Shown here piece by piece: positions 6,959 through 64,000 of a stretch of DNA of 64,000 bases. How positions within the stretch are numbered: the first letter of the stretch is position 1; each line of letters opens with the position of its first letter. The stretch is taken from the NCBI RefSeq assembly GCF_027625995.1, contig NZ_CP115396.1:3472001-3536000 (forward strand), written 5' to 3'. Under the pieces are notes generated by a model. It did not search any database. It was not told the origin of the DNA and worked only from the letters and a program-made list of their open reading frames with translations. Origin of the DNA: Hymenobacter yonginensis. GTDB lineage: Bacteria > Bacteroidota > Bacteroidia > Cytophagales > Hymenobacteraceae. The position numbers were made by a program, and so were the translations under genes.

Positions 6959-7076
6959 CTGTTCAAATGGAAGATTCGGTGTCAAGCAATGTCAGCAAGG
7001 GCCCTCACCAGCCCTCAAGCCAGCACGAGCTAATTAAGAAATGAGGCACATCATCCACGCCAGCGCAGGCTGCTGC

Positions 7077-7535
7077 TTAATTCGGCGAGGCCTGCACGTG
7101 CGAATACGGCTGCGACGGATCGGGGCCAAACACCGCCAGCCGCACCAGATCCAGCAGCATGGCGTCGGCAATGGGCAGCGACTCCGGCGCGGGCGGAACG
7201 TAGTGCGGCATTAGAAATCCCTGCAGCGTCTGGAAACTGGCAGTAGCCAGTGGATGAAAGGCCATGGACCAATCAGCAAAACTGCGGGCGGCAATAGGCC
7301 GGTCTACCAACTTGCGCACGTGCGAGTGGCGGCCGTCTGAGGCAATGCGCTCAAACAAGCTGTCCACAATGGCCACTTCCCCCTCGAATAGCTGGGCAAT
7401 ATTGCCATGGCTATAAAACAACACCCCTGTAATGCCGTTGCGGGCATTATCGTGGCGACTTTGGTCGAGCAGGTGCTGTAATTCACTGTCCGTCAGCGGG
7501 TGCACTGCACGGCTCATGTATACGATATGCTTCAT
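7077..7535 (-). CDS. Short BLUF-domain blue-light photoreceptor
   Basis: 152 residues, essentially one BLUF (flavin-based blue-light) domain with a roughly 50-residue C-terminal cap. All residues known to matter for the BLUF photocycle are present, with the spacing of Slr1694 shifted by two: Tyr6 (HIVYMS), Asn30 (SRHDNARNGITG), Gln48 (NIAQLFEG), Trp89 and Met91 (FADWSMAF). The domain should therefore bind FAD and be photoactive (family knowledge). Short BLUF proteins signal by protein-protein contact. The PAS histidine kinase gene immediately downstream on the same strand is the obvious candidate partner (inference). ATG start at 7535. Confidence 0.92.
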   Translation of the reverse strand: MKHIVYMSRAVHPLTDSELQHLLDQSRHDNARNGITGVLFYSHGNIAQLFEGEVAIVDSLFERIASDGRHSHVRKLVDRPIAARSFADWSMAFHPLATASFQTLQGFLMPHYVPPAPESLPIADAMLLDLVRLAVFGPDPSQPYSHVQASPN

Positions 7536-7679
7536 GCTGCTAAAATAGAATGCTCATCGTTTTACTCTAGTGAGATTCCGCTAGCATAAACTCCCTGAGG
7601 CCAGCTCAAGTTTCAAGTGGCCGCCATTGCCTCGCTACTGCAGTGCGCACCATCAGGCCGGCTGCCCAAGCCGAGCCGC

Positions 7680-10580
7680 TTACAACCGAATGCTGAATGC
7701 CAACGGCTCAAACACCAGCTCGTTGGTGTAGGTATCCACCACCAGCCGCACGCCGGCTTCCAGCGGCGTGCGCAGGCGCAGCACGTTGAACAGCGCCGCC
7801 ACGTCGAGGCCTACGTTGCGGTAGTTGCCGCGGCCCGACACGCCGGTGCTGCGGCCCTGCGCCACATCCAGAAACCCGGTGGCCCGCAGTCGCTGCACGT
7901 ACAGCAGCCGCCCCACCGACCAGTGCGGAAACGCCAGCGGCAGATAGTAGTCGGCGGAGGCGGCGCTGAGCTGGTCGAAGCTCACGTAGCCTTCGCCGCG
8001 GGGGAAGCTGATGGCCGAGGCAAACTGGTACTGCCGCTGCTGCTGGCTCTGGTAGCCGGCACGCAGGCGCAAACTGTGGTGCTTGCCCAGGCCGGGCACG
8101 TACACGCTGCCCTGCGCGCCCCACTGCCGGGCCTCCAGCCCCACCCCAAACGGCGTGGCGCGCGAGGTGAACAGGGCCGTGGCGCCCCAGCGCGGGGCCA
8201 CGTCGCGGGCACTCATTTTCAGCTGGCGCACGAAGCTAAGCGTGGTTTGCAGCGCGTGCACCGGCCGGCCGGGGCCGGGCTCGGAGCGGAACCGCACCGG
8301 CAAATCGTAGCCGCTGACCTGCTCCAGCAGGTAGTAGCTGCTCAGGCTCAGGGCCGACAAGTATTTGGAGCGGGTGAGCGTGAGCGGCAGCCGCAGGCCG
8401 GCCGTGAGGCGCGTGGTCTGCCAGCGGTCGGCGCGCAGGCTGTCGAGGGGCTGGTTGCGGGCCCGGTCGATGTAGAGGGCGGCGTTGCGGCCACCGTGGT
8501 TGATTTCGGCGTCGAACACCGGGTATTTGCCCTGGTAGCTGAGGCCGCCGAACACGGCCCCGGTGCGCTCATTCTGGTCGTAGCTGACGCCGGCCACGGC
8601 CTGGGTGGTGCTGAGCAGGTCCTGCGAGCGAAGGCCGAGGCTGACGCTGTTGCCGGTGGGGCTTTGCACCACGCCCCAGCTGAACACATTGAAGGCGTGC
8701 CGCAACACCGAGTAGGGCCGCACCGGGTAGCGCGTGGCCGAATCCTGGCGGGAAGCACTGCCCAGCCGTGGCACCACGGTGGCGGCGCCCGGCTCGCGGG
8801 CAGCCAGTGCGGCGGCGTAGGGCTGGCCGGCATCGGCGGCTTGGAGTGACGCGGGCGGTACGGCACGCCAGGTGGCCGGCTGCAGCAGCATCTCGGTGAT
8901 GCGCGCCCCGGTGGCCCGGAAATCGTGAAACGCCAGTTGCTGCCCATCCGGCGACACGGCCGCCTGATAGGCACCCAGCGGCCGGCTCGTCACCTGCCAC
9001 ACCTGTCCGGTGCCGGTATGCACGGCATACACGTTATCAATGCCCGACTGCGGCGAGTTGTAGAGCACGTAATCGGCCCAGGGCTGGGGGTTGGTCAGGT
9101 TGACGTTGGCCACGGGCAGCAGGGCCCGCACCGCGCCGGTATTCAGGTCGGTTTCCTCCAGGGTTTTGCCGGACGGCTTCAGCACCACCGCCACCACCCG
9201 CCGGCCGTCGGGCGTGAAGCGGGGCTGCAGGTATAAGTCGTTCTGGGGGTTGGGCAGGGTCTGGAGCACGGCGCCGGTGCGGGCGTCGAGCAGGTGCAGG
9301 GCGTGGTGGTAGGCCGAGTCGGTTTCCACGGCTATCAGGCGCGTGCCATCGGGCGAGAGCGAGGCAGCGGTGTAGCGGTGGTGGCGGCCGAGGCGCGTGA
9401 GGCGGCCGGTGGCCAAGTCCAGCACCTTCAGCTCGGAATGGATGCGCTGGCCCCAGCGGGCGTCGGGCTGCAGCTCCGGCCACACCACTTTGCCGCCGCC
9501 CACGCTCAGCTGCTCGGGCAGGTTCAGCAACCCAGGCACGAACAGCTTCCGCTCCTGCCCGCGCCGGCCCAGCAGCACCAGCTGCGCAATGTCGCCGAGG
9601 CCGGATTTCAGGGCTAGCACGGTGCTGTCATTCACATATTGCGGGTACTGATACTCGGTGAACACCGGGCCCTGGTACTGGCCGGCCAGCTCCTGCGCCG
9701 CGGTGGGCTGTAGCTCCCGCTGCTGCGCACGCCACGTGGAGTCCAGCTCCTGCATCGTGCGCTGGTAGAGTTGCTCTACGCGCAGGCCGGTGGTGCGCTT
9801 CAGGCCCTGGGAGAAGGAAAACGGGTAGAACGGAAAACGGTAGTAGCGGGTCAGGGCCCGGTCCCAGACGTCGGCGCCGTAGTGGGTTTTGGCGTAGGAA
9901 GTGAGGTAGTAACCCAGCACGTACCAGTTGGGCACCTGGTCGCGCAAAGAGCCGTTCACGGCTTTCTGGTAGCTGTAGGTGCGGCCCGCCAGCAGATTGG
10001 CCCGCAGCCCGGCCCCGAACTCCGGAATCCGGCCCCGGCCGCTGCGCGTGAGGGCCGTTTCGGTGCCCACGGCGTCGCCCTCAAAAAACCACTGCGGCAC
10101 GCCCACGGCCGCCACGCCCAGCGCCCCGTCGCCGAGCAGAGGCCTCAGCAGGCGTCCTATTCCCTGGCGGCCCTTCTCAAACTGCGCCACGTGCCGGTAC
10201 TCGTGTACCACCAGCCCATCCAGCCAATCCACGGTGCCCAAGCCCATGCCCTGCTGCGGGGTGCTGAAAAACTCGGCGTGGCGCGGCAGAAACGTCACGA
10301 AGCCATTGCTCACGCTGGTGCGGGTCTGCATCACCACCGCAATAGGCCGCGGGCTGACACCCAGCGTGGCCGCGCCGGGCCCGTGCACCTGCTCCAGCTG
10401 CCGGGCCGTGCGCTGGGCGGCCTCCTGAAACCCTAGCGGGTACAGCACCCGAAAATGCGGCGTCCGGACTTCCTGCCAGCGCAGGGCGGGCGGGTTCTGG
10501 TCGAGGATAGGAAGGCTTTGGGCAGTAGCGGCGGCCGAGGCCAACAGCAGAAGAAAGCTAAGCCAGGAGAGAAAACGCAT
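7680..10580 (-). CDS. HEXXH peptidase-like / PD40 beta-propeller / C-terminal barrel-like protein
   Basis: 966 residues from the ATG at 10580, chosen because it opens a clean signal peptide (MRFLSWLSFLLLLASAAATA); the longer frame adds 14 unlikely residues. Residues 30-260 resemble a gluzincin (peptidase MA-like) domain: zinc motif VVHEYRH (His126, Glu127, His130) and a later QWFFEGDA (Glu168) that could be the third ligand. Residues about 300-600 carry WD40/TolB-like PD40 repeats (LSPDGTRLIAVETDS, FTPDGRRVVAV, VSPDGQQLAFHD). The last 330 or so residues are rich in alternating hydrophobic strands and end in SIRL, consistent with an outer-membrane barrel. It is probably a surface or periplasmic protease-like protein of unknown substrate. 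Two short fossils of its 3' end lie at 2195 and 5067. Confidence 0.75.
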   Translation of the reverse strand: MRFLSWLSFLLLLASAAATAQSLPILDQNPPALRWQEVRTPHFRVLYPLGFQEAAQRTARQLEQVHGPGAATLGVSPRPIAVVMQTRTSVSNGFVTFLPRHAEFFSTPQQGMGLGTVDWLDGLVVHEYRHVAQFEKGRQGIGRLLRPLLGDGALGVAAVGVPQWFFEGDAVGTETALTRSGRGRIPEFGAGLRANLLAGRTYSYQKAVNGSLRDQVPNWYVLGYYLTSYAKTHYGADVWDRALTRYYRFPFYPFSFSQGLKRTTGLRVEQLYQRTMQELDSTWRAQQRELQPTAAQELAGQYQGPVFTEYQYPQYVNDSTVLALKSGLGDIAQLVLLGRRGQERKLFVPGLLNLPEQLSVGGGKVVWPELQPDARWGQRIHSELKVLDLATGRLTRLGRHHRYTAASLSPDGTRLIAVETDSAYHHALHLLDARTGAVLQTLPNPQNDLYLQPRFTPDGRRVVAVVLKPSGKTLEETDLNTGAVRALLPVANVNLTNPQPWADYVLYNSPQSGIDNVYAVHTGTGQVWQVTSRPLGAYQAAVSPDGQQLAFHDFRATGARITEMLLQPATWRAVPPASLQAADAGQPYAAALAAREPGAATVVPRLGSASRQDSATRYPVRPYSVLRHAFNVFSWGVVQSPTGNSVSLGLRSQDLLSTTQAVAGVSYDQNERTGAVFGGLSYQGKYPVFDAEINHGGRNAALYIDRARNQPLDSLRADRWQTTRLTAGLRLPLTLTRSKYLSALSLSSYYLLEQVSGYDLPVRFRSEPGPGRPVHALQTTLSFVRQLKMSARDVAPRWGATALFTSRATPFGVGLEARQWGAQGSVYVPGLGKHHSLRLRAGYQSQQQRQYQFASAISFPRGEGYVSFDQLSAASADYYLPLAFPHWSVGRLLYVQRLRATGFLDVAQGRSTGVSGRGNYRNVGLDVAALFNVLRLRTPLEAGVRLVVDTYTNELVFEPLAFSIRL

Positions 10581-35318: not shown

Positions 35319-35381
35319 AGTTGCTGGTTGTCAGTTATCAGTAATTCTTGTGGATTGCCTGACAACTGACAACCAGCAACT
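35319..35381. repeat. Inverted repeat built from the GTTGTCAGTT/GTTGCTGG repeat family
   Basis: Perfect 18-bp arms (AGTTGCTGGTTGTCAGTT and complement) around a 27-nt loop, just after the stop of the second M43 gene. The same repeat words occur at 56891-56917 and inside purQ (61307-61341) and purM (54503-54529). Confidence 0.75.
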
Positions 35382-40601: not shown

Positions 40602-40630
40602 CAGGCGTGTGACAGCCTAGAGCGTCACAC

Positions 40631-40726
40631 CCAGAACGTCATGCAGAGCGGAGCGAAGCATCTCGCCAGTGTGGTAAAATCACTACACTAGCGAGATGCT
40701 TCGCTCCGCTCTGCATGACGTTCTGG
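40631..40726. repeat. REPIN-like inverted repeat, perfect 36-bp arms
   Basis: Arms 40631-40666 and 40691-40726 are exact complements (starting CCAGAACGTCATGCAGAGCG) around a 24-nt spacer. It is the same family as 38338-38451 and is related to 27497-27663. It lies between ppk1 and the DUF3850 gene. Confidence 0.92.
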
Positions 40727-40783
40727 TGTTCCATCGTAACGCCCGGCAAACCGGCTCTTCACACGGAAGTAACACAGGAACAG

Positions 40784-40791
40784 TACCTTTG
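40784..40791 (+). promoter_or_regulatory. Promoter -7 box (TACCTTTG) for the DUF3850 gene
   Basis: An exact TAnnTTTG match placed just before the first leader hairpin (40795). If used, transcription starts near 40797-40800 and the 5' UTR is about 105 nt. Confidence 0.45.
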
Positions 40792-40794
40792 CTG

Positions 40795-40874
40795 TGCGGG
40801 CGGCAACAACCAATGCCGCCCGCATCAGGTAAAAGACCCTGCCGGTCAGCCCATCAGGGGCGTGGCAGGCGGGT
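40795..40874 (+). promoter_or_regulatory. Structured two-hairpin leader upstream of the DUF3850 gene (possible cis-regulatory RNA)
   Basis: Hairpin 1 has a perfect 11-bp stem (TGCGGGCGGCA 40795-40805 with its complement 40814-40824) and an ACAACCAA loop. After the linker TCAGGTAAAAG, hairpin 2 pairs CCTGCC (40838-40843) with GGCAGG (40864-40869). Nested inside is GCCC ATCAG GGGC (40849-40861). No coding frame explains the pairing, and no U-run follows hairpin 2, so it is not a plain terminator. I do not recognise a known riboswitch. Confidence 0.45.
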
Positions 40875-40903
40875 TTCCGTTCCACATTTTTCACTTCCAC
40901 ACC

Positions 40904-41233
40904 ATGCTATATTCCACTACCTCCCCCACGAGCGCCGTCCTCACCCCTACTTACCACGAGTTGAAAGTATGGCCCGCCTGCTTTGCGGCCGTACTCGATG
41001 GCCGCAAAGCCTTCGACGTGCGCTTCAACGACCGGGACTACCAGATCGGCGATGCGGTGCTGCTGCGCGAGTATGAGCCCGAGAGCGAACAGTACAGCGG
41101 CCGAAGTACCGAGCGCTGGATCAGCTATCTGATGCAGGGCGGCGCGTTCGGCCTCGAAAACGGCTGGTGTGTGCTGGGCTTGGCCGAGCACCCGCCCCTG
41201 CCGGCCGGCGTCAGCGACACCCGCCTCTGGTAG
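40904..41233 (+). CDS. DUF3850 (ASCH/PUA-like) protein
   Basis: 109 residues from the ATG at 40904, the first start after the structured leader; longer frames run through the inverted repeat and are rejected. The body matches DUF3850: HELKVWPACFAAVLDGRKAF, VRFNDRDYQIGDAVLLREYE, then ISYLMQGGAFGLENGWCVLGL. DUF3850 belongs to the ASCH/PUA-like beta-barrel group, often RNA- or modified-nucleotide-binding and frequent in phages and mobile elements. Here it is chromosomal with normal codon use and its own terminator (41258). Confidence 0.88.
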   Translation: MLYSTTSPTSAVLTPTYHELKVWPACFAAVLDGRKAFDVRFNDRDYQIGDAVLLREYEPESEQYSGRSTERWISYLMQGGAFGLENGWCVLGLAEHPPLPAGVSDTRLW

Positions 41234-52946: not shown

Positions 52947-53050
52947 TGCTGTAGAGACGCGACACTTCGCGTCTCCTCGTTGAACGACCGGCAAAACATA
53001 TAAAACAACCTCAGCAACGACGAGACGCGAAGTGTCGCGTCTCTACAGCA
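52947..53050. repeat. REPIN-like inverted repeat of the GAGACGC type, copy 1
   Basis: Perfect 29-bp arms (52947-52975 and 53022-53050), each of which is itself a small hairpin (GAGACGCGA-CACT-TCGCGTCTC). The arms continue inward with one mismatch (CTCGTTG/CAACGAC). The loop contains TCGTTGAACGACC, also found in the copy at 55257 in reverse orientation. It fills the gap between the convergent stops of pncB and the DUF4240 gene. Confidence 0.92.
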
Positions 53051-54085: not shown

Positions 54086-55246
54086 TTAGCCCTCGTAGCG
54101 CAGCTCGCCGGCTTCCACGCGCAGCGTCACGCCGGGCTCGGGGGTGATGCGGCCGGCTACCTGGGCCTGGTAGCCCTGGGCGCGCAGGGTTTCGGCTACG
54201 GCTTCGGCCTGCTCGGGCTCGGTTACCAGCAACATGCCGTTGCCCATGTTCCAGTAGAGATAGGCTTCCTGGGGCGTAATGCCAGCCAATTCGGCCAGCT
54301 GCTGCATGGCAGGCAGGGGCTCGAACAGGTTGTCCAGCTCCGCCCCTACCCCGTTCTTGAGCACCCGCTTGAAGTTATCAGCAATGCCGCCGCCGGTGAT
54401 GTGCGCCGCCGCGTGCAAAGGTAGGCCCGCATCGAGCACCGCCGCCACGCCGGGCGAGAAGATGAGCGAAGGCGCCAGCATTACCTCGCCCCAAGTGGTA
54501 GCATTGGCCGTGGTTAACTGCTGGTTGCTTGCCGCTTCACCTGCCGCTTGCGTGCCGGCAGCTTCGTTGTACGGCTGTTCGTGCCACTTCTCTCCGAAGG
54601 CCTTGGTGAGGGCGCGGCGGGCCAGGGAGTAGCCGTTGGAGCGGAAGGAGGGCGAGTGCAGGGCCACCACGGCCTGGCCAGCTCGCACGTTGGCGCCGCT
54701 CAGGGGGCGCTCCAGGCTCGGGTGCAGCACGCCCACGGCAGTGGAGCACCAGTTGAAGTTCATTTTGGCGCCGGGGTAGCCGCCGATGCGGTTGCCCAGC
54801 TCGGCAATTTCGCCGCCCGTTACCGCAATCTGGCTGAACTGGGCCGCATCGTGCAGGCCGCGCATGAGCTCATCTACTACCTCGTAGTTGAGCGTGTTCA
54901 CGTCGATGATGTTGGAAAGGTTGGTGGGCACGAATCCGGCCACGATGAGGTCGTCGGCCACCATGGCAATCAGGTCGTAGCCCAGCGTGTCGTAGCGGTC
55001 CAGGCGCTCGGCCACCTCAATCTTGGTCCCGATGCCGTCGGAGCCGATACCCAGCCGCTCAGCCCCGAAACGGATTTCGTTGGAGAAGCCGCCCGCCAGA
55101 TCCTGGGCCGGCTCGCCGGGCTTGCCGGCGCGGGTGCTGAAGGTTTTCTGGGCCCAGTGGTAGGCGTTCTTGGAGGCAGCGTTGCCTTCTTCGATGGAGT
55201 AGCCGGCGGTGGCTTTGAAATTGGTATCGGCGGAAGTCTGGCTCAT
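54086..55246 (-). CDS. purM: Phosphoribosylformylglycinamidine cyclo-ligase (AIR synthase)
   Basis: 386 residues. PurM closes the imidazole ring in step five of IMP synthesis. Signatures: IGSDGIGTKIEVAERL, DLIAMVADDLIVAGFVP, ALHSPSFRSNGYSLARR, HITGGGIADNFKRVL, YWNMGNGMLLV. Residues about 227-251 are an Ala/Thr-rich insert (EAAGTQAAGEAASNQQLTTA) in the loop between GYSLARRALTKAF and the LAPSLIF strand. The usual loop there is shorter. Its DNA at 54503-54529 matches the dispersed GTTGCTGG/GTTGTCAG repeat. Last gene of the purine operon, 133 bp after purF with an inverted repeat between. Confidence 0.96.
   Translation of the reverse strand: MSQTSADTNFKATAGYSIEEGNAASKNAYHWAQKTFSTRAGKPGEPAQDLAGGFSNEIRFGAERLGIGSDGIGTKIEVAERLDRYDTLGYDLIAMVADDLIVAGFVPTNLSNIIDVNTLNYEVVDELMRGLHDAAQFSQIAVTGGEIAELGNRIGGYPGAKMNFNWCSTAVGVLHPSLERPLSGANVRAGQAVVALHSPSFRSNGYSLARRALTKAFGEKWHEQPYNEAAGTQAAGEAASNQQLTTANATTWGEVMLAPSLIFSPGVAAVLDAGLPLHAAAHITGGGIADNFKRVLKNGVGAELDNLFEPLPAMQQLAELAGITPQEAYLYWNMGNGMLLVTEPEQAEAVAETLRAQGYQAQVAGRITPEPGVTLRVEAGELRYEG
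54503..54529. repeat. Dispersed repeat fragment inside purM
   Basis: On the minus strand AGCAACCAGCAGTTAACC matches the right arm region of the repeat at 35364-35389. It is read in frame as SNQQLTTAN. Confidence 0.5.
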
Positions 55247-55256
55247 GGCAGAGGGA

Positions 55257-55354
55257 GTAGAGACGCAATATTTTGCGTCTCGGCATTGCTGATGTTGTTT
55301 GGACTGCGCGGTCCTGGTCGTTCAACGATGAGACGCAAAATATTGCGTCTCTAC
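55257..55354. repeat. REPIN-like inverted repeat of the GAGACGC type, copy 2
   Basis: Perfect 25-bp arms (55257-55281, 55330-55354), each a hairpin of its own (GAGACGCAA-TATT-TTGCGTCTC). The loop holds GGTCGTTCAACGA, the reverse complement of the loop in the 52947 copy. It sits between purF and purM within the operon and could attenuate purM. Confidence 0.92.
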
Positions 55355-55379
55355 ACCGTGCAATCGAGTCTGTGGGCTG

Positions 55380-56885
55380 TTAATGCTCGGTCGGCTCGGG
55401 GGCTTTTGCACTCACGGATGGAATGACGTCGGGGCCTTTTTTGTCGGAGCGGTGGCTTTGGCGTTCTTCCTGGATGTGGCGCAGGTACTTGGTCACGTCG
55501 CCTGTCGGGTACTGGCCGGTGAAGCAGGCGAAGCAGCTGCCGCCGTGGCCTTTCTCCTCGGAAAACAGCGCCTGCAAGTCCTCCACCGACTGGTAAATCA
55601 CCTTATCGGCCTCGATGTAGCGGCAGATTTCTTCCTCGGTGTAGTTGGCCGCAATCAGCTCGGTGCTCATGGCCATATCGATGCCGTAGATGCAGGGCGC
55701 AATGATGGGCGGGGCGCTACTGATGAAGTACACCTCGGCGGCCCCGGCCTCGCGCAGAATGCGCACGATGCGCCGGGAGGTGGTGCCGCGCACGATGCTG
55801 TCATCCACCACGGCCACCTTTTTGCCTTCCACAAACTCGCGGATGGGGTTGAGCTTTTTCTTGACGATGTCCTCGCGGCCGGCCTGGCTGCTTACGATGA
55901 AGGAGCGGCCCATGTGGTTGTTCTTCACCAAAGCCCGGCGGTAGGGCACGCCAATGGCCTCGGCCAGCCCCGACGCCGAGAAGTAGCCCGACGACGGCAC
56001 GTCAATCACCATATCCGGCTGAATGCCCGACTCGATGACCTTTTTGGCCAGCATCTTGCCCAGGCGCACCCGCTCGCGGGCCACCAGCCGGCCGTGGATG
56101 GTGGAATCTTCGCGGGCGAAGTAGATGTGCTCGAACACGCAGAAGTTCTTCGGCTGCTCCTGCGGGTTTTTGTGATGCACCTTGAAATCCTTGTCGATGA
56201 ATACCGCCTGGCCGGGGCCGACGTTTTCCACGAACTCAAACCCCAGATAATCAAAGCAGGTGCTTTCGGAGGCGAAGGCGAAGACGGGGCCGCGCTCGGT
56301 TTCGCGGCGGCCCAGTACCAGCGGCCGGATGCCCAGCGGGTCGTTGAAGGCCAGCAGGCCGTGGCCGGCAATGATGGTGATGGTCGCGTAGGCCCCCTTC
56401 ACCAGCTCCTGCGTCGTCTCCACGGCGTCGAAAATGTCGATAACCGAGAGGTTGTCGAGGTTTTTCAGGCGCAACTCCGAGGCGAAGGTGTACATAATCA
56501 GCTCCAGGTCGTTGCTGGTTTTGGGCAGCACGTGGTACTTCTCATGCAGGCGCTTGGCGGCCGAGCGGAAGTTGATGACGTTGCCGTTGTGCACCATCGA
56601 CAGCCCGAACGGGTAGCTGGTGGTAAACGGCTGCGCCAGCTCGGCATCACCGGAGCCCTGGGTGGTGTAGCGGGCGTGCCCGATGCCGATGTTGCCCTTC
56701 AGCTTCTTGAGCTGCTTGGGGCGGAACACGTCGGAGATGAGCCCGTTGCCCTTGCAGAGGTGGAAGTTGTCATCGAAGGTGGCAATGCCGGCGGCGTCCT
56801 GGCCGCGGTGCTGGAGCGCGGTGAGGCCGAACACGATATCGTGCGCAACATCATCAGGACCGTAAAAACCTACTATTCCGCACAT
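55380..56885 (-). CDS. purF: Amidophosphoribosyltransferase
   Basis: 501 residues. PurF makes phosphoribosylamine from PRPP and glutamine, the first step of purine synthesis. N-terminal nucleophile glutaminase start MCGIVGFYGP (Cys2 directly after Met, no propeptide), GHARYTTQG, MVHNGNVINF. PRPP motif VAVVDDSIVRGTTSRRI. Four cysteines match the B. subtilis-type [4Fe-4S] ligands: NFCVFEHIYFAR, APCIYGIDM and CFACFTGQYP. The C-terminal tail is charged. Sixty-seven bp after purN and 133 bp before purM. Confidence 0.97.
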   Translation of the reverse strand: MCGIVGFYGPDDVAHDIVFGLTALQHRGQDAAGIATFDDNFHLCKGNGLISDVFRPKQLKKLKGNIGIGHARYTTQGSGDAELAQPFTTSYPFGLSMVHNGNVINFRSAAKRLHEKYHVLPKTSNDLELIMYTFASELRLKNLDNLSVIDIFDAVETTQELVKGAYATITIIAGHGLLAFNDPLGIRPLVLGRRETERGPVFAFASESTCFDYLGFEFVENVGPGQAVFIDKDFKVHHKNPQEQPKNFCVFEHIYFAREDSTIHGRLVARERVRLGKMLAKKVIESGIQPDMVIDVPSSGYFSASGLAEAIGVPYRRALVKNNHMGRSFIVSSQAGREDIVKKKLNPIREFVEGKKVAVVDDSIVRGTTSRRIVRILREAGAAEVYFISSAPPIIAPCIYGIDMAMSTELIAANYTEEEICRYIEADKVIYQSVEDLQALFSEEKGHGGSCFACFTGQYPTGDVTKYLRHIQEERQSHRSDKKGPDVIPSVSAKAPEPTEH

Positions 56886-56890
56886 GTTGA

Positions 56891-56917
56891 GTTGTCAGTT
56901 GTCAGTTGCCCGTTGCC
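56891..56917. repeat. Tandem GTTGTCA-type repeat between purN and purF
   Basis: GTTGTCAGTTGTCAGTTGCC followed by CGTTGCC: four tandem heptamer-like units (GTTGTCA/GTTGCCC). Same words as in purQ and at 35319-35381. Confidence 0.65.
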
Positions 56918-56952
56918 GGGCCGCTGGGGGTGGTGGGTGGGGTGGTGATGTT

Positions 56953-57711
56953 CTAACGATTCGCCTCACCCCCCGGCCCCCTCTCCGGCAGAGAGGGGGA
57001 GCCAGACGACAATGGCGTTGAATGAACGGTGGCCGCAGCCGCTTGGGGAACTGCTGTTGGGGCCAGTTGCTGCTTGATGAGTTCCGCCAGGGTTTCGGCG
57101 TACACGCGGTGCTCCACGGCCAGGCCGCGGCGCTCCACTTCGGCCAGGGTGTCGGCTCCGCGCAGGTCAACCGGGTGCTGGGCCAGGATGGGGCCGGTGT
57201 CGAGGCCTTCGTCCACCAGGTGCACCGTGATTTTGGTTTCGGGCAGGCGGTTCTCGAAGGCCCACTCATAGGCGTGCAGGCCCTGGTGCTGGTGGGTGTC
57301 GGCGGGGTGGATATTGAGGATGCGGCCCGCAAACGCCCGGATAAACGTGGGCGACAAAATGCGCATGTAGCCGGCCAGCACCACGTAATCGGGCTGGTAC
57401 TGGCGCAGCACATCCACCACCTCGGCATCGAACTCGGCCCGCTTGCGGCCCTGGCTGCTGCGGCTGGCGGTGGGGCAGCCCAGCCCGGCGGCCGTGGCTA
57501 GTCCGGGTGCGGCGGGCACGTTGCTGAACACCACGGCTACTTCGGCCAGGTTCTGCAGCACACCGTGTTGCACGGCATTTACCAGGGCCACCATGTTGGA
57601 GCCCCGGCCCGACAGCAGAATGGCCAGGCGCGCTTTGCGGGTGCTATGGTTACCAGTTGCCTGCAAGGGTCGGTTCCGGCCGCTGGCCGATGTCGGTGCG
57701 GATGTACACAT
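56953..57711 (-). CDS. purN: Phosphoribosylglycinamide formyltransferase
   Basis: 252 residues from the ATG at 57711, overlapping the end of purD by 62 bp; a TTG at codon 16 is an alternative. PurN formylates GAR with 10-formyl-THF. Motifs: LAILLSGRGSNMVALV, VVLAGYMRILSPTFI, ILNIHPADTHQHQGLHAYEW (active-site Asn/His; here PADTHQHQ where many PurN have PSLLPxxxG), ITVHLVDEGLDTGPIL. The final 15 residues (SPSLPERGPGGEANR) and the Ala/Pro-rich stretch before them lie beyond the normal end of the enzyme and come from a palindromic repeat at 56962-57004. Confidence 0.93.
   Translation of the reverse strand: MCTSAPTSASGRNRPLQATGNHSTRKARLAILLSGRGSNMVALVNAVQHGVLQNLAEVAVVFSNVPAAPGLATAAGLGCPTASRSSQGRKRAEFDAEVVDVLRQYQPDYVVLAGYMRILSPTFIRAFAGRILNIHPADTHQHQGLHAYEWAFENRLPETKITVHLVDEGLDTGPILAQHPVDLRGADTLAEVERRGLAVEHRVYAETLAELIKQQLAPTAVPQAAAATVHSTPLSSGSPSLPERGPGGEANR
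56962..57004. repeat. GC-rich palindromic repeat forming the 3' end of purN
   Basis: CCCCCTCTC-CGGCA-GAGAGGGGG hairpin next to CGCCTCACCCCCCGG, a type of intergenic element frequent in Bacteroidota genomes (established from general experience, not searched here). It lies inside the purN frame and encodes the C-terminal tail. Confidence 0.6.
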
Positions 57712-58936
57712 CCTGGAAATTCACTTTTTCTGCTTCGCGGTACACGTGCTGCACGGCGTCCTCCAGCTCCTCGCCGTGGCCCACCAGCACCAGCACCCGG
57801 CCGCCGTTGGTTACCAGCTCGCCGGTTTCGGTGCGCTTGGTGGCGCCGTGGAAGGCCAGGATGCTGGGATGCAGCTGGTTGAGGCCGGTGATGGGGAAGC
57901 CGGTGGGGAAGCTGGCGGCGGGGTAGCCGCCCGAGGCCAGCACCACGCCCACGTAGTGGCCGCGCCGCTGGCGCACCACCGTTTGCTGCAGCGTGCCGTC
58001 GAGGGTGGCCTCAATCAGCTCCAGCAGGCTGCTTTCCAGGGCGGGCAGCAGCACTTCGGCTTCGGGGTCGCCGAGGCGGGTGTTGTACTCGAGCAGCTTC
58101 GGGCCCTGGGGCGTGAGCATGATGCCGAAGTACAGGAAGCCGTTGAAATCGAACTGCTCGTTTTGCAGGCCGCGCAGGGTGGGGTCCACAATGTCGGTGC
58201 GGATGGCGGCCAGCACGTTATCGTCGCAGAAAGGGACGGGGCAGTAGGCGCCCATGCCGCCGGTGTTGGGGCCCTGGTCGCCGGCCAGCAGCTGCTTGTG
58301 GTCCTGGGAGGGGCTGAGCAGGCGGATGCGGTTGCCGTCGGTGATGCCGATGATGCTGATTTCGGGGCCGGTGAGCTTTTCTTCAAGCAGGAAGCTAAAC
58401 CAGCCGCTGTGCAGGCGGGCCAGGTCGTCGAGGGCGGCGTGGGCTTCGTCTACCGAGGAGCACACATACACGCCCTTGCCGGCCGCCAGCCCGTCGAACT
58501 TCACCACCACCTGCCCGCTGAGCTCGGTGGCTTTGGCGCGGGCGGCGTCCAGCTTGTCGCTGCGGAAGGGCCAGGCCTGGGCTGTAGCTACGCCGTGGCG
58601 GCGCATGAAATCCTTGCTCCACACCTTGGAGCTTTCCAGCGTAGCCCCCGCCCGCCCCGGCCCGAACACCCGGATGTCGGAGCCCTGGAAGAAGTCGGTG
58701 ACGCCCGCCGCCAGCGGGGCCTCGGGGCCTACCACCACCAGCTTTACGCCGTGCGCCTGGCAGAAAGCCTGGATGGCCGGGAAGTCGGTGGCGCTGATGT
58801 GGGGGTGACTGTTCGGAATGCCGGCGTTGCCGGGCAGCACGTGCACGGTAGCGCCGTCGCGGGTCAGTTTCCACGCCATGGCGTGTTCACGGGCCCCGCC
58901 GCCGAGGAGTACTATGGATTTATTGCTGGTGCTCAC
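57650..58936 (-). CDS. purD: Phosphoribosylamine--glycine ligase
   Basis: 428 residues from a GTG at 58936; no ATG lies near the conserved start. PurD makes GAR. N-domain IVLLGGGAREHAMAWKL, VVVGPEAPLAAGVTDFF, ATP-grasp segments SSKVWSKDFMRRHGV, VVKFDGLAAGKGVYV, EEKLTGPEISIIGITDGNRI, LSPSQDHKQLLAGDQGPNTG, MGAYCPVPF, GPKLLEYNTRLGDPEAEVLL. C-domain GHYVGVVLASGGYP. Its 3' end overlaps purN by 62 bp, which argues for coupling. Twenty-eight bp separate it from the unknown gene upstream. Confidence 0.96.
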   Translation of the reverse strand: MSTSNKSIVLLGGGAREHAMAWKLTRDGATVHVLPGNAGIPNSHPHISATDFPAIQAFCQAHGVKLVVVGPEAPLAAGVTDFFQGSDIRVFGPGRAGATLESSKVWSKDFMRRHGVATAQAWPFRSDKLDAARAKATELSGQVVVKFDGLAAGKGVYVCSSVDEAHAALDDLARLHSGWFSFLLEEKLTGPEISIIGITDGNRIRLLSPSQDHKQLLAGDQGPNTGGMGAYCPVPFCDDNVLAAIRTDIVDPTLRGLQNEQFDFNGFLYFGIMLTPQGPKLLEYNTRLGDPEAEVLLPALESSLLELIEATLDGTLQQTVVRQRRGHYVGVVLASGGYPAASFPTGFPITGLNQLHPSILAFHGATKRTETGELVTNGGRVLVLVGHGEELEDAVQHVYREAEKVNFQDVYIRTDIGQRPEPTLAGNW

Positions 58937-58964
58937 TATCGTGTGGTTGATAAGTCAGGGAAGA

Positions 58965-59438
58965 TCAGTCGTAGAAGGAAAAAGCTTCCGCTTCCCCCCC
59001 TACCTCTACGATATTCCAATTACGAAACTGCAGCCCAAAACCGTGCTCTATTTCCCACTGGCAGGCGAAGCTCAGCCCAAACCGACCGATTTCCGGCTCT
59101 TCGGGAAAATAGATGATTTGCAGTTGGTACAGCGCCTGCAGCTCCGTGGCATCGGCAGCCGTCAGCAGTTCGTCTTCTTCATTATAGATGTCGCCGCACA
59201 TCTGGCGCATCATCTGGAAATGCTCGAAGGCGGCCTCCGCTACCGACTGGTTCAAGCCGGGCAACTGCTGCAGCACGGCTTCAGCCGCCGCGGCCATTTC
59301 CGGCGTGAGCGTCTGCACCTCCCCCGACAAGTCGAACATCAACCTGACCAGGGGTTTCGACGGCACGAAGTCCAGCGGCACATCGGCCATCAGTCCTTCT
59401 GTTTCATCGAAGCGTACCGTTTGTTTCCAGTTGTTCAT
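58965..59438 (-). CDS. Unknown protein embedded in the purine operon (DUF6985-like?)
   Basis: 157 residues from the ATG at 59438 (a GTG at 59456 is possible). Acidic: FDETEGLMADVPLDFVPSKP, then a helical stretch (EMAAAAEAVLQQLPGLNQSV, FEHFQMMRQMCGDIYNEEDE) and a strand-rich end (IIYFPEEPEIGRFGLSFACQ, WEIEHGFGLQFRNWNIVEVG). The closing CxWExEHGxG...VVxVG pattern resembles DUF6985/immunity-type proteins, but this is a weak resemblance. It sits between purC and purD with 40- and 28-bp gaps on the same strand, so it is surely cotranscribed. No link to purine synthesis is evident. Confidence 0.65.
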   Translation of the reverse strand: MNNWKQTVRFDETEGLMADVPLDFVPSKPLVRLMFDLSGEVQTLTPEMAAAAEAVLQQLPGLNQSVAEAAFEHFQMMRQMCGDIYNEEDELLTAADATELQALYQLQIIYFPEEPEIGRFGLSFACQWEIEHGFGLQFRNWNIVEVGGEAEAFSFYD

Positions 59439-59478
59439 GCGAAGATGCGTACCCACGCCGTGGAGTGGACCAGTGGTA

Positions 59479-60399
59479 TTAGGCTTCTTGGATGATACCG
59501 GCGCGCACCAAGTTGCTCACCATGCGAGCCTGCATATCGTCGTCGGAGGTGGTGGGCAGCGGCGCGCCGGTGATACGCTCGTAGATATCGAGGTAGCGGC
59601 GGGTGGCCTCGGCCGAAACTTCGGGCGTGAGGGCGCGGGGGTACTGGCCGTCCTGCTTGTGGGCAATCAGCCACTGGCGCACGTACTCCTTGTCCATCTG
59701 CTCGGCGGCTTCGGGGTTGCGGGCGTAGTCGTCGGCGCTCCAGAAGCGCGACGAGTCGGGCGTGTGGATTTCGTCAATCAGCAGCAGCTCCCCGTTGCGC
59801 AGCCCGAATTCATACTTGGTATCCACCAGAATGATGCCGCGCTCAGCCATCCACTTGGAGGCAAAGTTGAACAGCTCCAGGGCCTTCACTCGCATCTGCT
59901 CGTACAGCTCGGCCGTCACCCAGCCTTCGGCCACCAGGTTCTCGGGCGTAATCTCCCGGTCCGATTCCTCCTTGGTGGTGGGCGTTACGATGGGCTCGGG
60001 AAACTGCTGGTGCTTGGTCAGGCCGTCGGGAACGGTTACGCCCGAGAAGCTGCGCTGCCCCTGCTGGTAGCCGCGCCACATGGAGCCGGTGAGGTAGTGG
60101 CGCACCACCATTTCCACCCGGATGGGCTCGGCCTCCTGGGCCAGCGTCACGTTAGGGTCGGGCAGGCTGATGACGTGGTTGGGGATGATGTGCCGGGTTT
60201 TGTCGAACCAGAAAGCCGCCAGCCCGTTGAGCACGGCCCCTTTGTGCGCCACGGGCGTTTCCAGCACCGAGTCGAAGGCCGACAGGCGGTCGGTAACCAC
60301 AATCAGCCGCTCACCCGATGGGGCGCGGAACGAGTCACGGACCTTGCCACGGTGCAGGAGTTCGAGCTGAGGCGTTTCGAAATGGTTGAGGGTATTCAT
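59479..60399 (-). CDS. purC: Phosphoribosylaminoimidazole-succinocarboxamide synthase
   Basis: 306 residues from the ATG at 60399; a GTG at 60417 adds six. PurC condenses CAIR with aspartate. Motifs: LLHRGKVRDSFRAPSGERLI, VVTDRLSAFDSVLETPVAHK, KTRHIIPNHVISLPDPN, EMVVRHYLTGSMWRGYQQGQ, RGIILVDTKYEFGLRNGELL, DEIHTPDSSRFWSADDY. This is the long eukaryote/Bacteroidota-like SAICAR synthase (about 300 residues) and not the 240-residue E. coli type. Forty-five bp after purQ. Confidence 0.96.
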   Translation of the reverse strand: MNTLNHFETPQLELLHRGKVRDSFRAPSGERLIVVTDRLSAFDSVLETPVAHKGAVLNGLAAFWFDKTRHIIPNHVISLPDPNVTLAQEAEPIRVEMVVRHYLTGSMWRGYQQGQRSFSGVTVPDGLTKHQQFPEPIVTPTTKEESDREITPENLVAEGWVTAELYEQMRVKALELFNFASKWMAERGIILVDTKYEFGLRNGELLLIDEIHTPDSSRFWSADDYARNPEAAEQMDKEYVRQWLIAHKQDGQYPRALTPEVSAEATRRYLDIYERITGAPLPTTSDDDMQARMVSNLVRAGIIQEA

Positions 60400-60444
60400 T
60401 CTGAAGTCAATATCCACCGGCCAGGCCGGCAGCTGATGGATGCG

Positions 60445-61509
60445 TTAGGATGAAAACTCGTGCGACACCGACGGGGCCGCGGCGGCCGTGGCCTGGGCCT
60501 GCACGTGCTCCACAATGTTGCGGAACAGCCATACCCCATCACCCTCCTCACTCAGGCCGGGAGTAGCGCGCTTGCGGCGGGCCCAGTCGGGGTGGTTATA
60601 GAGTGAGAGGAAAGCCTCGGGGTGGGGCATCAGGCCGAACACGCGGCCGGTGGTGTCGGTCAGGCCGGCGCAGTTGAGGTCAGCGCCGTTGGGGTTAAAG
60701 GGGTACACGTCGGTGGGGGCCCCGTCGAAGTCGGCGTAGGTGAGGCAGTTCAGGCCGCGGGCCTCAATGGCGGCGCGGGTGGCCTCGTCCTGGATGATGA
60801 GGCGGCCTTCGCCGTGGCGCACGGGCACTTCCAGCGTCGTCAGGCCCTTCAGGAACGGCGTGGTGGCACGGGGGTTGACGGTGAGCTTCACCCACCGGTC
60901 CTCATAGCGGCCCGAGGCGTTGTGCGTGAGGGTTACTTCGGGCGTCACGGTGCCGCTCAGGTCGGGCAGCAGGCCCAGCTTCACTAGCACCTGGAAACCG
61001 TTGCAGATGCCCAGCACGTGCTTGCCACCAGCCACAAACTCCTTGATGTCGTCGAGCAGCGTGCGGCCCTCGGCGTTGCGGCGGTAGCGCAGCTTGTTGG
61101 CCAGCACCACGCCCGAGCCCAGGTCGTCGCCGAAGGAGAACCCGCCGGGAAAGTTCAGGATGTCGAAGTCGTGGATGCTCACGTGGCCGTGCAGCACCTG
61201 GTTCAGGTGCACGATGGTGGCCTCGGCCCCTACCAACCGGTAGGCGGCGGCAAATTCCTCCTCGCAGTTGATACCAAAACCGGTCAGGATAAGCGCCCGA
61301 ACTTTTGAGTTGTCAGTTGCCAGTTGCCGGTTGTCAGTTGGCTGTTCTTCCTTGCTTTTCAGGGGCTCGGTGGATTCGTGGCCGGGGTCAACGCTTTTGA
61401 AGCCGGGCAGCACAATCTGGCCTTCCCGGGTTACCACTTCGTGGCCGGGGTCGTCGTGCTGGGGGCGCGGGGGCGTGTGCTGGTCCGGCAGTTGGGGAGT
61501 CTGTTCCAT
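60445..61509 (-). CDS. purQ: FGAM synthase glutaminase subunit with repeat-bearing N-terminal extension
   Basis: 354 residues from the ATG at 61509, two bases after the purL stop, which supports this start by coupling. The enzyme body starts near residue 70 (VRALILTGFGINCEEEFAAA) with PGGFSFGDDL, nucleophile Cys169 (VLGICNGFQVL), VRHGEGRLI and His296/Glu298 (GLMPHPEAF). It supplies ammonia to PurL. PurQ proteins normally begin at VRALIL; here about 68 extra residues come first, containing two copies of DPGHE and the repeat-encoded TDNRQLATDN. The extension looks disordered. Confidence 0.93.
   Translation of the reverse strand: MEQTPQLPDQHTPPRPQHDDPGHEVVTREGQIVLPGFKSVDPGHESTEPLKSKEEQPTDNRQLATDNSKVRALILTGFGINCEEEFAAAYRLVGAEATIVHLNQVLHGHVSIHDFDILNFPGGFSFGDDLGSGVVLANKLRYRRNAEGRTLLDDIKEFVAGGKHVLGICNGFQVLVKLGLLPDLSGTVTPEVTLTHNASGRYEDRWVKLTVNPRATTPFLKGLTTLEVPVRHGEGRLIIQDEATRAAIEARGLNCLTYADFDGAPTDVYPFNPNGADLNCAGLTDTTGRVFGLMPHPEAFLSLYNHPDWARRKRATPGLSEEGDGVWLFRNIVEHVQAQATAAAAPSVSHEFSS
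61307..61341. repeat. Tandem GTTGTCA/GTTGCCA repeat inside purQ
   Basis: GTTGTCAGTTGCCAGTTGCC then GGTTGTCAGTTGG: four to five heptamer-like units, read on the minus strand in frame as PTDNRQLATDNS. Same family as 56891-56917 and 35319-35381. Confidence 0.7.
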
Positions 61510-61511
61510 GA

Positions 61512-64000
61512 TTAATGCGCGGTTTCGGGGTGGCCGAAGCCGATAATGCGGTTTACCGGACCGTTGGTCCACTCGTGACGCAGGGCCGCCGTGCTGGCCG
61601 AAATAACGGTTTTACCCGCCTGCCGCACCGTCAGCTGCCCATTCGGCGTTACCCGACCCAGGCGCGTGGCGCGGCCGCCAAAGTGCTGCTCGAAGGCCAC
61701 CACATCCTCGGGAGCTACCGTGGCCACAAACCGGGAATGCGACTCCGAAAACAGCTGCACGTGCACCGGCAATCCTACCGGCAGCTCCACCTCGGCCCCG
61801 AAGCCGTGGCCAAACGTGGCCTCGGCCAGGGCCACCGCCAGCCCGCCGTCCGACAGGTCGTGGCAGCTCTGAATCAGGCCTTGGTCGTTGGCCTCGCCCA
61901 TGAGAATATACAGGGCTTTGGCCTGCTCGAAGCGCACCTGGGGCACGTTGGCGCCCAACTCGCCGAAGAGCTGGTAGAACTCCGAGCCGCCCAGCTCATC
62001 GTAGGTTTCGCCCAGCAGGTACACCACGTCGTCGGCCTGCTTGAAGTCGGAGGTGATGGTGCGGCGCACGTCGTCCAGCTTGGCGGTCATGGAGTACAGC
62101 ACCGTGGGCGGCACCGAAATCTTCACGCCGTCGGCCTTAAAGTCGTTCTTCATCGAGTCCTTGCCCGAGGTGAGCGGGATGCAGTAGGCCGCCGTGGCGT
62201 CGCGCAGGGCCTGGCACATGCGCACCAGCTTGGCCAGCTTGTGCTTGCCATCGGGGTTGCCCACGGGGTCATACACCGAGTCGGGCACGCAGAAGTTGTC
62301 GTTCACGGACCAGAAGTTGCCGTCGCCGTAGCTGAGGTTGGGCAGCTTGCCGCCCACGGCCACAATCTGGCGCACGGCCTCGTCGAACGCGCCGGCCGAC
62401 ATATGGTAGGCGTCCAAATCACCGAAGCGGGGCAGAATACCATTGCTCACGGCCACGCCTTCCCAGCTCTCGAAGTTGAAGCGCACCACGGCCGCATCCT
62501 GCGGAGCCTGGCCGGTAGCGCCCATCAGGGGCTTGATGATGGTGCGGCCCTTCACCTCGTGGTCGTACTGCCGAATCACCGACTCGCGGGAGCAGATGTT
62601 GAGGCTACCCAGCAGGCGAGTTAGGGCGTCGGTGTAGTCGGTGGCAGCGGCCAGCGCGGGCTCCTGCGCCGTGGGCTTGCGCCACTCGGCTTCCAGCACT
62701 TTGCGCGGCACGCCGTCGTGCAGGAAGTGCATATCCAGGTGGGCCACCGGCTCGCCGGCGAAGCGCACGTCGAGGTAGCCGTCGGCGGTGAAGTAGCCGA
62801 TATCGGTCAGTTCCACTTCCATTTCCCGGCCCAGGGCCAGCAGCTCGTCCAGCTTGGCGGGCTCCACGGCCAGCGAAAACCGCTCCTGCGACTCCGAAAC
62901 AAAGATTTCCCAGGGCCGCAGACCGGGGTACTTCAGCGGCACGCGCTCCAGCTCCACCACGGCCCCGCCGCTGATGGTTGCCAGCTCGCCGATGCTCGAT
63001 GACAGGCCGCCCGCGCCGTTGTCGGTGCTGCACTTGATGAGGCCGCGGCGCGTGGCCAGCAGCAGGAAGTCCATGGCCAGTTTCTGGGTGATGGGCGAGC
63101 CAATCTGCACGGCCGTGGCGGGCGAGGTTTCGTCCAGCTCAATGCTGCTGAAGGTAGCGCCGTGGATACCGTCTTTGCCCACCCGGCCGCCGGCCATGAT
63201 GATGCGGTCCTGCGGGTCGATGTTCTTCTCCCACGAATCCAGCCCGGCCAGTTGCATGGGCATGACGGCGCCGGTGCCGCAGTACACCAGCGGCTTGCCG
63301 GCGTAGCGGTCATCGAACACGATGCTGCCGTTCACGGTGGGCACGCCCGACTTGTTGCCGCCGTCCTCGATGCCCTTGCGCACGCCCTCAAAAATGCGGC
63401 GCGGGTGCAGCTGGTTGCTCAGCAAAGTGCCATCAAACTCAGGGTTACCGAAGCACAGCACGTTGGTGTTGAACAGGAGCCGCGCGCCCCCGATGCCGGT
63501 GGCCAGCGGGTCGCGGTTGTTGCCCAGAATGCCCGTAATGGCCCCGCCGTAGGGGTCGATGGCCGAGGGCGAGTTGTGGGTTTCCACCTTCCACACAAAC
63601 AACGACTCGGGGTTGATGCGCACGGCCCCGGCGTTGTCCGAGAACACCTTAATCAGCCAGTCGTTGCCGTTGGCGCGCAGCTGGCGGTCCACCTCGGCGG
63701 TGGCGTCTTTGATGTAGGTTTTAAACAAGGAATCCACCTCGAACTCCTCGCCCGTATCGGCATCCCGGTACTTAATCAGAGCCGAAAACTCCTTGTGCTT
63801 GCAGTGCTCCGACCACGTCTGGGCAATGATTTCCAGCTCGCAGTCCGTCGGGTCCTGGGGCAGGCCGGCGGCCTGGCGCTCTTCCCGGATGCTGGTATAA
63901 TGGTCGCGCACGGCGCGCATTTCCTCCAAATTTAGGGCGTAGAGGTTGTCTTTCGACAGCTTCAGCAGCTCCTCATCCGAGAGGCCCACCAGCCCCACCG
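61512..64000 (-). CDS. purL: FGAM synthase large subunit (5' end beyond the window)
   Basis: 829 codons visible; the frame continues past the right edge (the apparent start codon there is an internal GTG). PurL amidates FGAR using ATP and ammonia. Visible from the FGAR-AT linker domain (LSDEELLKLSKDNLYALNLE, TWSEHCKHKEF) through the two AIR-synthase-like halves: VETHNSPSAIDPYGGAITGI, GVRKGIEDGGNKSGVPTVNG, GGRVGKDGIHGATFSS, STDNGAGGLSSSIGELA, SGKDSMKNDF, HDLSDGGLAVALAEATFG. The N-terminal PurS-like part must lie outside. First visible gene of the operon. Confidence 0.95.
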   Translation of the reverse strand, partial: VGLVGLSDEELLKLSKDNLYALNLEEMRAVRDHYTSIREERQAAGLPQDPTDCELEIIAQTWSEHCKHKEFSALIKYRDADTGEEFEVDSLFKTYIKDATAEVDRQLRANGNDWLIKVFSDNAGAVRINPESLFVWKVETHNSPSAIDPYGGAITGILGNNRDPLATGIGGARLLFNTNVLCFGNPEFDGTLLSNQLHPRRIFEGVRKGIEDGGNKSGVPTVNGSIVFDDRYAGKPLVYCGTGAVMPMQLAGLDSWEKNIDPQDRIIMAGGRVGKDGIHGATFSSIELDETSPATAVQIGSPITQKLAMDFLLLATRRGLIKCSTDNGAGGLSSSIGELATISGGAVVELERVPLKYPGLRPWEIFVSESQERFSLAVEPAKLDELLALGREMEVELTDIGYFTADGYLDVRFAGEPVAHLDMHFLHDGVPRKVLEAEWRKPTAQEPALAAATDYTDALTRLLGSLNICSRESVIRQYDHEVKGRTIIKPLMGATGQAPQDAAVVRFNFESWEGVAVSNGILPRFGDLDAYHMSAGAFDEAVRQIVAVGGKLPNLSYGDGNFWSVNDNFCVPDSVYDPVGNPDGKHKLAKLVRMCQALRDATAAYCIPLTSGKDSMKNDFKADGVKISVPPTVLYSMTAKLDDVRRTITSDFKQADDVVYLLGETYDELGGSEFYQLFGELGANVPQVRFEQAKALYILMGEANDQGLIQSCHDLSDGGLAVALAEATFGHGFGAEVELPVGLPVHVQLFSESHSRFVATVAPEDVVAFEQHFGGRATRLGRVTPNGQLTVRQAGKTVISASTAALRHEWTNGPVNRIIGFGHPETAH

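Follow-up and report, generated by a model that had tools for sequence, protein, structure and literature searches.

How does dispersed repeat DNA come to be read as protein in purine enzymes? The question is raised by a 64,000-nucleotide stretch of the Hymenobacter yonginensis genome (contig NZ_CP115396.1, positions 3,472,001 to 3,536,000 of the forward strand), referred to here as the window, in which purQ and purM both contain words of a seven-base repeat in frame. An initial annotation, made from the sequence alone, described these copies and compared them with the palindromic elements of Rickettsia. The observation holds up and belongs to a larger pattern across Hymenobacter, and its reading of repeats into protein is supported, including the likeness to the Rickettsia elements in how it works. 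We conclude with high confidence that these are protein-coding palindromic repeats, that is, hairpin elements that have landed in frame, repeatedly, in the same loops and ends of Hymenobacter enzymes. The comparison set consists of PurQ loci from Hymenobacter and Solirubrum, namely the best 80 of 165, each taken with flanks of up to 10 kb; these and further loci are designated by L numbers.

The repeat is dispersed. With up to three mismatches allowed, (GTTGTCA)2 matches the window 15 times where 2.9 matches are expected, and none of 100 shuffles reaches 15. The coding copies in purQ and purM are present where they had been annotated, as are the noncoding copies at 35319-35381 and 56891-56917. 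Genome-wide counts in this study come from relatives' genomes rather than from the window's own; the term 'active spread', which the initial annotation applied to this genome, is accordingly not supported. In all six relatives' genomes GTTGYCAGTTGYCA occurs, with 4 to 189 matches per genome, while its backward control has none, apart from one match in one genome. Within 800 kb of the genome of the sister species L003, arrays of period 7 number 32, against 1-4 for periods 4, 5, 10, 11, 13, 16 and 17, with 10 at period 8 and 21 at period 14, a multiple of 7. Eighteen of the 32 lie outside script-predicted genes, five cross gene edges and nine lie inside genes. These nine comprise purQ, both PurM arms, two arrays in an E1 dehydrogenase fusion (PF00676, PF02779, PF02780), two in a B12/radical-SAM protein (PF04055), one close to the end of a predicted gene that has no Pfam match, and one at 722277 that looks like chance.

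Inserts in these proteins and in PurL occupy recurrent slots, and in three of the slots the fills are DNA hairpins by the criterion that no more than 2 of 200 codon shuffles reach the observed score. The PurL linker has 26-27 residues in 71 of 81 sequences and is filled in ten, nine of them in frame; in the window the slot is empty and lies where the alignment to 3viu is poor. A second PurL slot is filled in L024 and L031. The radical-SAM loop (DGEGPWLRLLE..LQRTFLRN) is filled in 15 of 16 genomes, L211 being unfilled with 29 residues, and the E1 dehydrogenase linker is clearly filled in six of 15 usable sequences. Hairpins were found in nine of nine in-frame PurL fills and in one of 72 unfilled sequences (the latter including L052, which is filled but out of frame), in 15 of 15 radical-SAM fills versus none of one unfilled, and in six of six E1 fills versus none of nine. 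Pooled, all 30 in-frame fills of the three slots are hairpins, compared with one of 82 unfilled sequences. Five of the nine unfilled E1 sequences (34 residues) hold heptad words and no hairpin. L193 in the E1 set and L258 in the radical-SAM set were dropped because of a wrong-strand open reading frame (ORF). Frame is kept, without stops, in 51 of 52 fills (21 in PurM, nine of ten in PurL, 15 in radical-SAM and six in E1), a count to be read with the fact that fills were located via open ORFs, which favours in-frame, stop-free copies. In L052 (H. lapidarius, 6670-9875) the PurL slot contains a CCCTCTCC hairpin out of frame and the purL ORF is split in two; this may be a sequence error, a split enzyme or a pseudogene. 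PurN shows a related situation at its C-terminus, where repeat-coded tails are common among relatives, as judged by eye and uncounted.

Single slots hold several families, as is directly seen in the PurM loop, the PurL linker and the radical-SAM loop. Family names (CCCTCTCC, GAGACGC, CGTCATGCTGAGC, GAATKAR/NEEL, GAGTTAA, AGCTAAC) are labels of this analysis, assigned by eye. Among the radical-SAM fills are several heptad hairpins; the CGTCATGCTGAGC hairpin of L202, L207, L208, L212 and L213 is unrelated to these. Of 39 genomes of the order that were searched, 17 have a match to the radical-SAM protein; among 12 further loci one (L258) was unusable, a close relative (L259) was filled and ten lacked a fill. 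The initial annotation had named inserts shared by orthologs from distant genera as evidence against its reading; these ten loci (51-68% identity), presumably from other genera, all have loops of 27-33 residues with no hairpin, suggesting that the unfilled state is probably the older one.

Between aligned blocks, the solved PurM 9k00 has 9 residues and the window 33. Measured from WHEAPY to TWGEVMLAPSLI, the PurM loop could be read in 76 of 81 sequences (all except L028, L066, L067, L073 and L078): 54 have 12-18 residues, one has 25 (L032, counted as unfilled) and 21 have 26-43. By eye, most of these 21 fills fall into four types: CAACTGA words (the window plus ten others), AGCTAAC (L023, L030, L033), GAATKAR hairpins (L039, L048) and GAGTTAA (L044, L059, L061). 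The other two are a mixed array in L031 and a CCCTCTCC palindrome in L004. Hairpins are found in five of the 21 fills and in one of 55 unfilled loops. The insert SNQQLTTAN of the window was attributed to words of the same repeat, which holds insofar as the words are recognisable through relatives such as L006 (AGCAACCAACAACTGACAACTGAA); taken alone, the insert is degenerate and forms no hairpin. It is a worn, one-armed copy common to close relatives. Among these, L006 carries the insert as the window does and L001 lacks it, in keeping with the expectation that some close relatives would be without it. On the PurM tree L001 pairs with L006, adjoining the window, so the filled state has also been lost or replaced. 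In L065 (H. qilianensis) the PurM slot is empty, but the PurM ORF is interrupted near residue 180 and the end of the PurN ORF is different.

The content of a slot matches the abundant variant of its host genome in the two families tested, with counts that include the slots themselves. The GAATKAR pattern GAATKARGAATKARGAATT occurs 68 times in the L048 genome and 62 times in that of L039, both of which carry a GAATKAR insert in PurM; six other genomes have 22, 7, 3, 2, 1 and 0, and the backward control has one match in one genome. For GAGACRCANNTNTGYGTCTC, the L065 genome has mostly GAGACAC forms and the L022 and L017 genomes nearly only GAGACGC forms, in each case the same as in their PurL slots. 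The L021 genome has none, and its PurL slot holds a longer variant; where the PurL slot is unfilled, the L062 genome has both forms and that of L010 neither. On an operon tree of 76 rows built from PurL, PurC, PurD, PurF and PurQ, at least eight changes between filled and empty are needed for PurL and at least nine for PurM, and PurM needs 11 on the PurM tree itself. A single clade for the PurM hairpin set L039, L044, L048, L059 and L061 is rejected (p-AU, from the approximately unbiased test, 2.5e-5), as is one for those five plus L031 on the PurM tree (p-AU 9e-5), with the groups named after the trees had been seen.

In purQ, the repeat stands in an N-terminal extension. The gene begins with an ATG at 61509, 2 nt past the purL stop, and 70 residues precede RALIL. 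At 61307-61341 the coding strand reads CCAACTGACAACCGGCAACTGGCAACTGACAACTC, inside PTDNRQLATDN, and the unit expected to give an in-frame TGA is CGG instead. The next in-frame ATG, GTG or TTG downstream of the array is codon 91, within the conserved core; consequently, the array must be read if PurQ is. The ratio of nonsynonymous to synonymous substitution rates (dN/dS) is 0.13-0.45 in the extension (first 57 codons, aligned by position without gaps) versus 0.008-0.16 in the core (21 pairs, 7 species), as expected of an extension that is read as protein under weaker constraint than the core. A repeat origin holds for the array and not for the whole extension, as only about 14 of the 70 residues are repeat-derived and most of the rest are common to relatives. 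Only some of the genus has this extension: a different clade has one that is quite unlike it, and some species have almost none. By eye, the residues just before VRALIL are the most variable and are often repeat words, with PTDNRQLATDN for the window, QQPTTNNQQP for L003, and NQKPKTQNQ and KHQALSTKHQKPK elsewhere. The different words of L003 at this junction agree with the proposal that close relatives would differ here. Many second-clade loci (within L036-L064) share the other extension, MAQ..FEMVQ..AHKVQSEAQ, which itself has repeated words.

The geometry of the repeats bears on how they can be read. A perfect 7-base repeat gives the same heptapeptide in all three frames. CAACTGA and GAATGAG have one stop per seven codons in each frame of the forward strand and none on the reverse strand; with GAGTTAA and GCACTAA, both strands carry one. 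As the forward arm of every word tried meets a stop once in seven codons in each frame, a change in that single unit (TGA to TTA, TTG, TCA, CGG or CAA) opens it. CAACTGA arrays within stop-to-stop ORFs are in the forward, stop-bearing orientation in 19 of 20 cases, although at least three of the 20 (L005, L007 and L023, before purF) precede the start codon and many are related by descent. The L048 genome has 49 listed element loci; of the 40 examined, ten are inside ORFs with coding flanks on both sides (including PurM and E1, both known beforehand), 12 are at the 5' end of a stop-to-stop ORF and are probably leaders, and 18 are elsewhere. The stop-giving unit reads TTA, TTG or TCA in seven of the ten in-ORF elements, by eye. 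Run on the 80 loci, the hairpin scan used for the L003 genome placed 37 of 268 hairpins in stop-to-stop ORFs, an uncontrolled figure in which several lie upstream of starts. At L171 (about 758-836; G003:C11:640758-640836), roughly ten almost perfect copies of CACTACT extend to the start codon of a predicted gene, which by eye resembles a GNAT acetyltransferase.

The mechanism we propose starts from genomes with many short intergenic hairpins, which consist either of two inverted 7-base-word arrays around a short loop or of GAGACGC, CCCTCTCC or CGTCATGCTGAGC hairpins. Copies would arise within each genome, and occasional ones would land inside genes. Those that survive would keep the frame, have no in-frame stop and sit in tolerant loops, linkers or ends, and would be translated as extra, probably unstructured, residues. 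Because tolerant places are few in each protein, the same slots would be filled repeatedly and overwritten by the family abundant in the host, with later families replacing earlier fills. From these patterns we infer that the inserts are translated in living cells, lie exposed on the folded proteins and are neutral, and also the way in which the copies move. A more tentative extension is that the slots may be self-perpetuating landing pads, in which hairpins insert preferentially into or next to hairpins and later families overwrite there. If so, the proteins would carry a heritable insertion platform, and slot content would be a running record of the repeat active in each genome.

Several results weigh against the reading as protein-coding palindromic repeats. 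Sixteen of the 21 PurM inserts are not significant hairpins, including that of the window, whose score is reached by 84 of 200 codon shuffles. At a looser threshold the period-7 excess in L003 is smaller (19 versus 2-13 for other periods, with 23 at period 14). In the same 800 kb, 98 of 99 strong hairpins (score of at least 17) are noncoding, one is mixed and none is coding, and coding hairpins with scores of 13-16 show no excess over codon-shuffled genes; coding copies are therefore few relative to intergenic ones and seem worn. Flanking residues (EIRQ.GVETHI) are common to the PurL GAGACGC inserts in L017, L022 and L065, and L021 is similar, such that some slots may be shared by descent or transfer. 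By eye, no target-site duplication is visible in the filled/empty pairs compared, and in these pairs most of the empty-loop residues have been exchanged rather than merely split apart, suggesting that the event is a replacement or that trimming comes after. No mover of the repeats was found.

Four other explanations were considered. The purQ array could be an untranslated leader, with PurQ starting downstream and the repeat in the ORF and not in the protein. Some intergenic elements do stop a few bases short of a start codon, and repetitive extragenic palindromes (REPs) at N-termini may be extragenic, according to PMC3733652. The array is, however, followed by no in-frame ATG, GTG or TTG up to codon 91 (CTG occurs) and preceded by an ATG 2 nt past the purL stop, the extension has a dN/dS of 0.13-0.45, and a leader is inapplicable to the internal slots of PurM, PurL, E1 and radical-SAM, all of which makes this explanation very unlikely. 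That the variable loops are ordinary low-complexity linkers, with repeat-like DNA due to coincidence or codon bias, is hardly credible: although the PurQ extension and E1 linker also differ among species without clear repeats, DNA hairpins are present in 30 of 30 in-frame PurL, radical-SAM and E1 fills versus 1 of 82 unfilled sequences, and similar elements lie between genes of the same genome.

The inserts could also be skipped by splicing of the RNA or bypassing by the ribosome, leaving proteins without them. Many inserts are hairpins, and the out-of-frame PurL copy of L052 would be tolerable under bypassing. Against skipping, 51 of 52 fills keep frame without stops (a proportion that ORF-based finding favours), and stop-giving units are substituted in coding copies (seven of ten by eye), which would be needless if the inserts were left out; we consider it highly improbable. 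Horizontal transfer of whole genes could have spread filled alleles with few true insertions, as hinted at by the difference between the PurM and operon trees and by the common flanks of the PurL GAGACGC inserts in L017, L022 and L065, with L021 similar. The arms of those inserts differ, though, and track the variant found in the host genome itself, the elements in the radical-SAM slot differ across 15 species, and the clade tests reject a single origin of the PurM hairpins, so that transfer is an unlikely account. Repeated in-frame insertion of hairpin elements is our preferred explanation.

Parts of this picture, namely in-frame REPs and intergenic heptad repeats, are already known separately. 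Rickettsia palindromic elements are palindromes found in frame in unrelated conserved genes, translated, and also intergenic (PMC10969869, PMC2229807). The Hymenobacter inserts resemble them as palindromic in-frame inserts in unrelated conserved genes (five of 21 PurM fills, PurL, E1 and radical-SAM), although the PurM insert of the window forms no hairpin. The Rickettsia elements are about 105-150 bp with their own sequences, whereas those of Hymenobacter, from another phylum, are largely heptad arrays, with three other hairpin families, set apart by description, and their slots hold different families in different species. GTAG- and CGTC-tagged REPs occur inside ORFs of several species, adding 20-82 residues, recB of two Xanthomonas has a REP at about the same site, and the CGTC class lacks a dedicated transposase (PMC3733652). 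CGTC REPs have 8-9 bp stems, 4-5 base loops and unpaired tags; Hymenobacter elements have arms of about 16-46 bp that are often heptad-periodic, the GACGC..GCGTC ends of GAATKAR elements are paired by eye, and the slots lie in purine enzymes across a genus.

Heptad repeats have been described elsewhere. TAACTGA heptamers occur in Beggiatoaceae, cyanobacteria and five Bacteroidetes, mostly intergenic and with some in ORFs (PMC4679880). They resemble the Hymenobacter repeats as heptanucleotide arrays adjoining start codons and in a related word (CAACTGA / TAACTGA). They are described as direct repeats whose forward orientation, with stops in all frames, is confined to ORF ends (PMC4679880), whereas 19 of 20 in-ORF CAACTGA arrays in Hymenobacter are forward and the stop unit is substituted in purQ. 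Cyanobacterial short tandemly repeated repetitive (STRR) sequences are usually 7-bp repeats able to form hairpins in promoters or intergenic regions (PMC2670836); the tandem 7-bp units, seen here as the period-7 excess, are alike by description, and the accessible text does not describe STRRs as protein slots. The resemblance to REPINs (REP doublets forming hairpins) and their REP-associated tyrosine transposases (RAYTs) consists of inverted pairs as the unit, dispersal and many variants (PMC3116915). A RAYT gene flanked by the repeat was not seen for heptads: none of eight Y1_Tnp loci has a period-7 array within about 1.5 kb, in a scan for heptads only, so that a RAYT is not supported as the heptad mover. 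Three of six genomes have no Y1_Tnp match. Flanks readable at six of the eight loci have other palindromic repeats, and PF01797 is found in the three genomes with 189, 32 and 39 GTTGYCA matches and not in those with 17, 4 and 6, a comparison of six genomes only. By eye, the Y1 transposase loci L111-L116 are accompanied by several different palindromes (CCCAGGGCTTCAGCCCTGGG, GCGCGAAGCGGAGCTGCGCG and others), an arrangement that resembles RAYT loci. In the literature searched, which leaves subscription journals mostly outside, nothing was found on hairpin slots in Hymenobacter or on a single protein loop in which several families replace one another.

Coordinates of the slots, their genes and the noncoding elements of the window are collected below. 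By eye, the family of the hairpin pair between purM and purF also fills the PurL slot of L017, L021, L022 and L065. In the purM-purF gap, each of three related species (window 55257-55354 and the syntenic loci in G001 and G003) has a different hairpin family, indicating that intergenic places turn over like the protein slots. A strong CGTCATGCAGAGCGGAGCGAAGCATCTCGC hairpin at 40631-40726 lies within the stop-to-stop ORF 40613-41230 and overlaps the sole ATG, GTG or TTG in its first 70 codons; it is either leader or coding. An Rfam scan of the window found one tRNA and nothing else. Identity to the L001 genome is 92-95% over window positions 55379-64000, from purF to purL, compared with 86% in purM and 72-90% in the other aligned blocks longer than 400 bases, and the purF-to-purL block may have recombined.

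Features of the window discussed in the text, with positions counted from its first nucleotide
Feature	Position	Strand	Remarks
purM, 386 aa	54086..55246	-	Pfam PF00586/PF02769
PurM insertion loop, 29 aa, with SNQQLTTAN at 54503-54529	54494..54580	-	
purQ, 354 aa with N-terminal extension	60445..61509	-	Pfam PF13507 (GATase_5), residues 69-335
In-frame heptad array in purQ, peptide QPTDNRQLATDN	61302..61343	-	Other words in L003 and L006
PurL linker slot, empty in the window, 26 aa VLEAEWRKPTAQEPALAAATDYTDAL	62622..62699	-	
purN	56953..57711	-	Pfam domain ends at residue 207
Last 20 residues of PurN (PLSSGSPSLPERGPGGEANR)	about 56956-57015	-	Coded by CCCTCTCC-type palindrome, by eye
Noncoding heptad hairpin	35319..35381	.	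Inverted heptad-array pair, arms 23, loop 17, directly after a stop codon
Noncoding heptad array	56891..56917	-	Abuts purF start codon
Noncoding hairpin pair GAGACGCAATATTTTGCGTCTC	55257..55354	.	Between purM and purF
Noncoding GAGACGCGACACTTCGCGTCTC hairpin	52947..53050	.	Further member of GAGACGC family

Repeat DNA that becomes protein was already known from Rickettsia and some REP-rich genomes; in Hymenobacter, more than one family does so at the same loops in essential enzymes. Within this one genus the slots can be compared empty, half-worn and fresh, which allows the rise of new protein segments from noncoding repeats to be watched and the tolerance of loops to be measured. The slots also offer an entry to the machinery that spreads heptad arrays, which have been reported from cyanobacteria and Beggiatoaceae as well.

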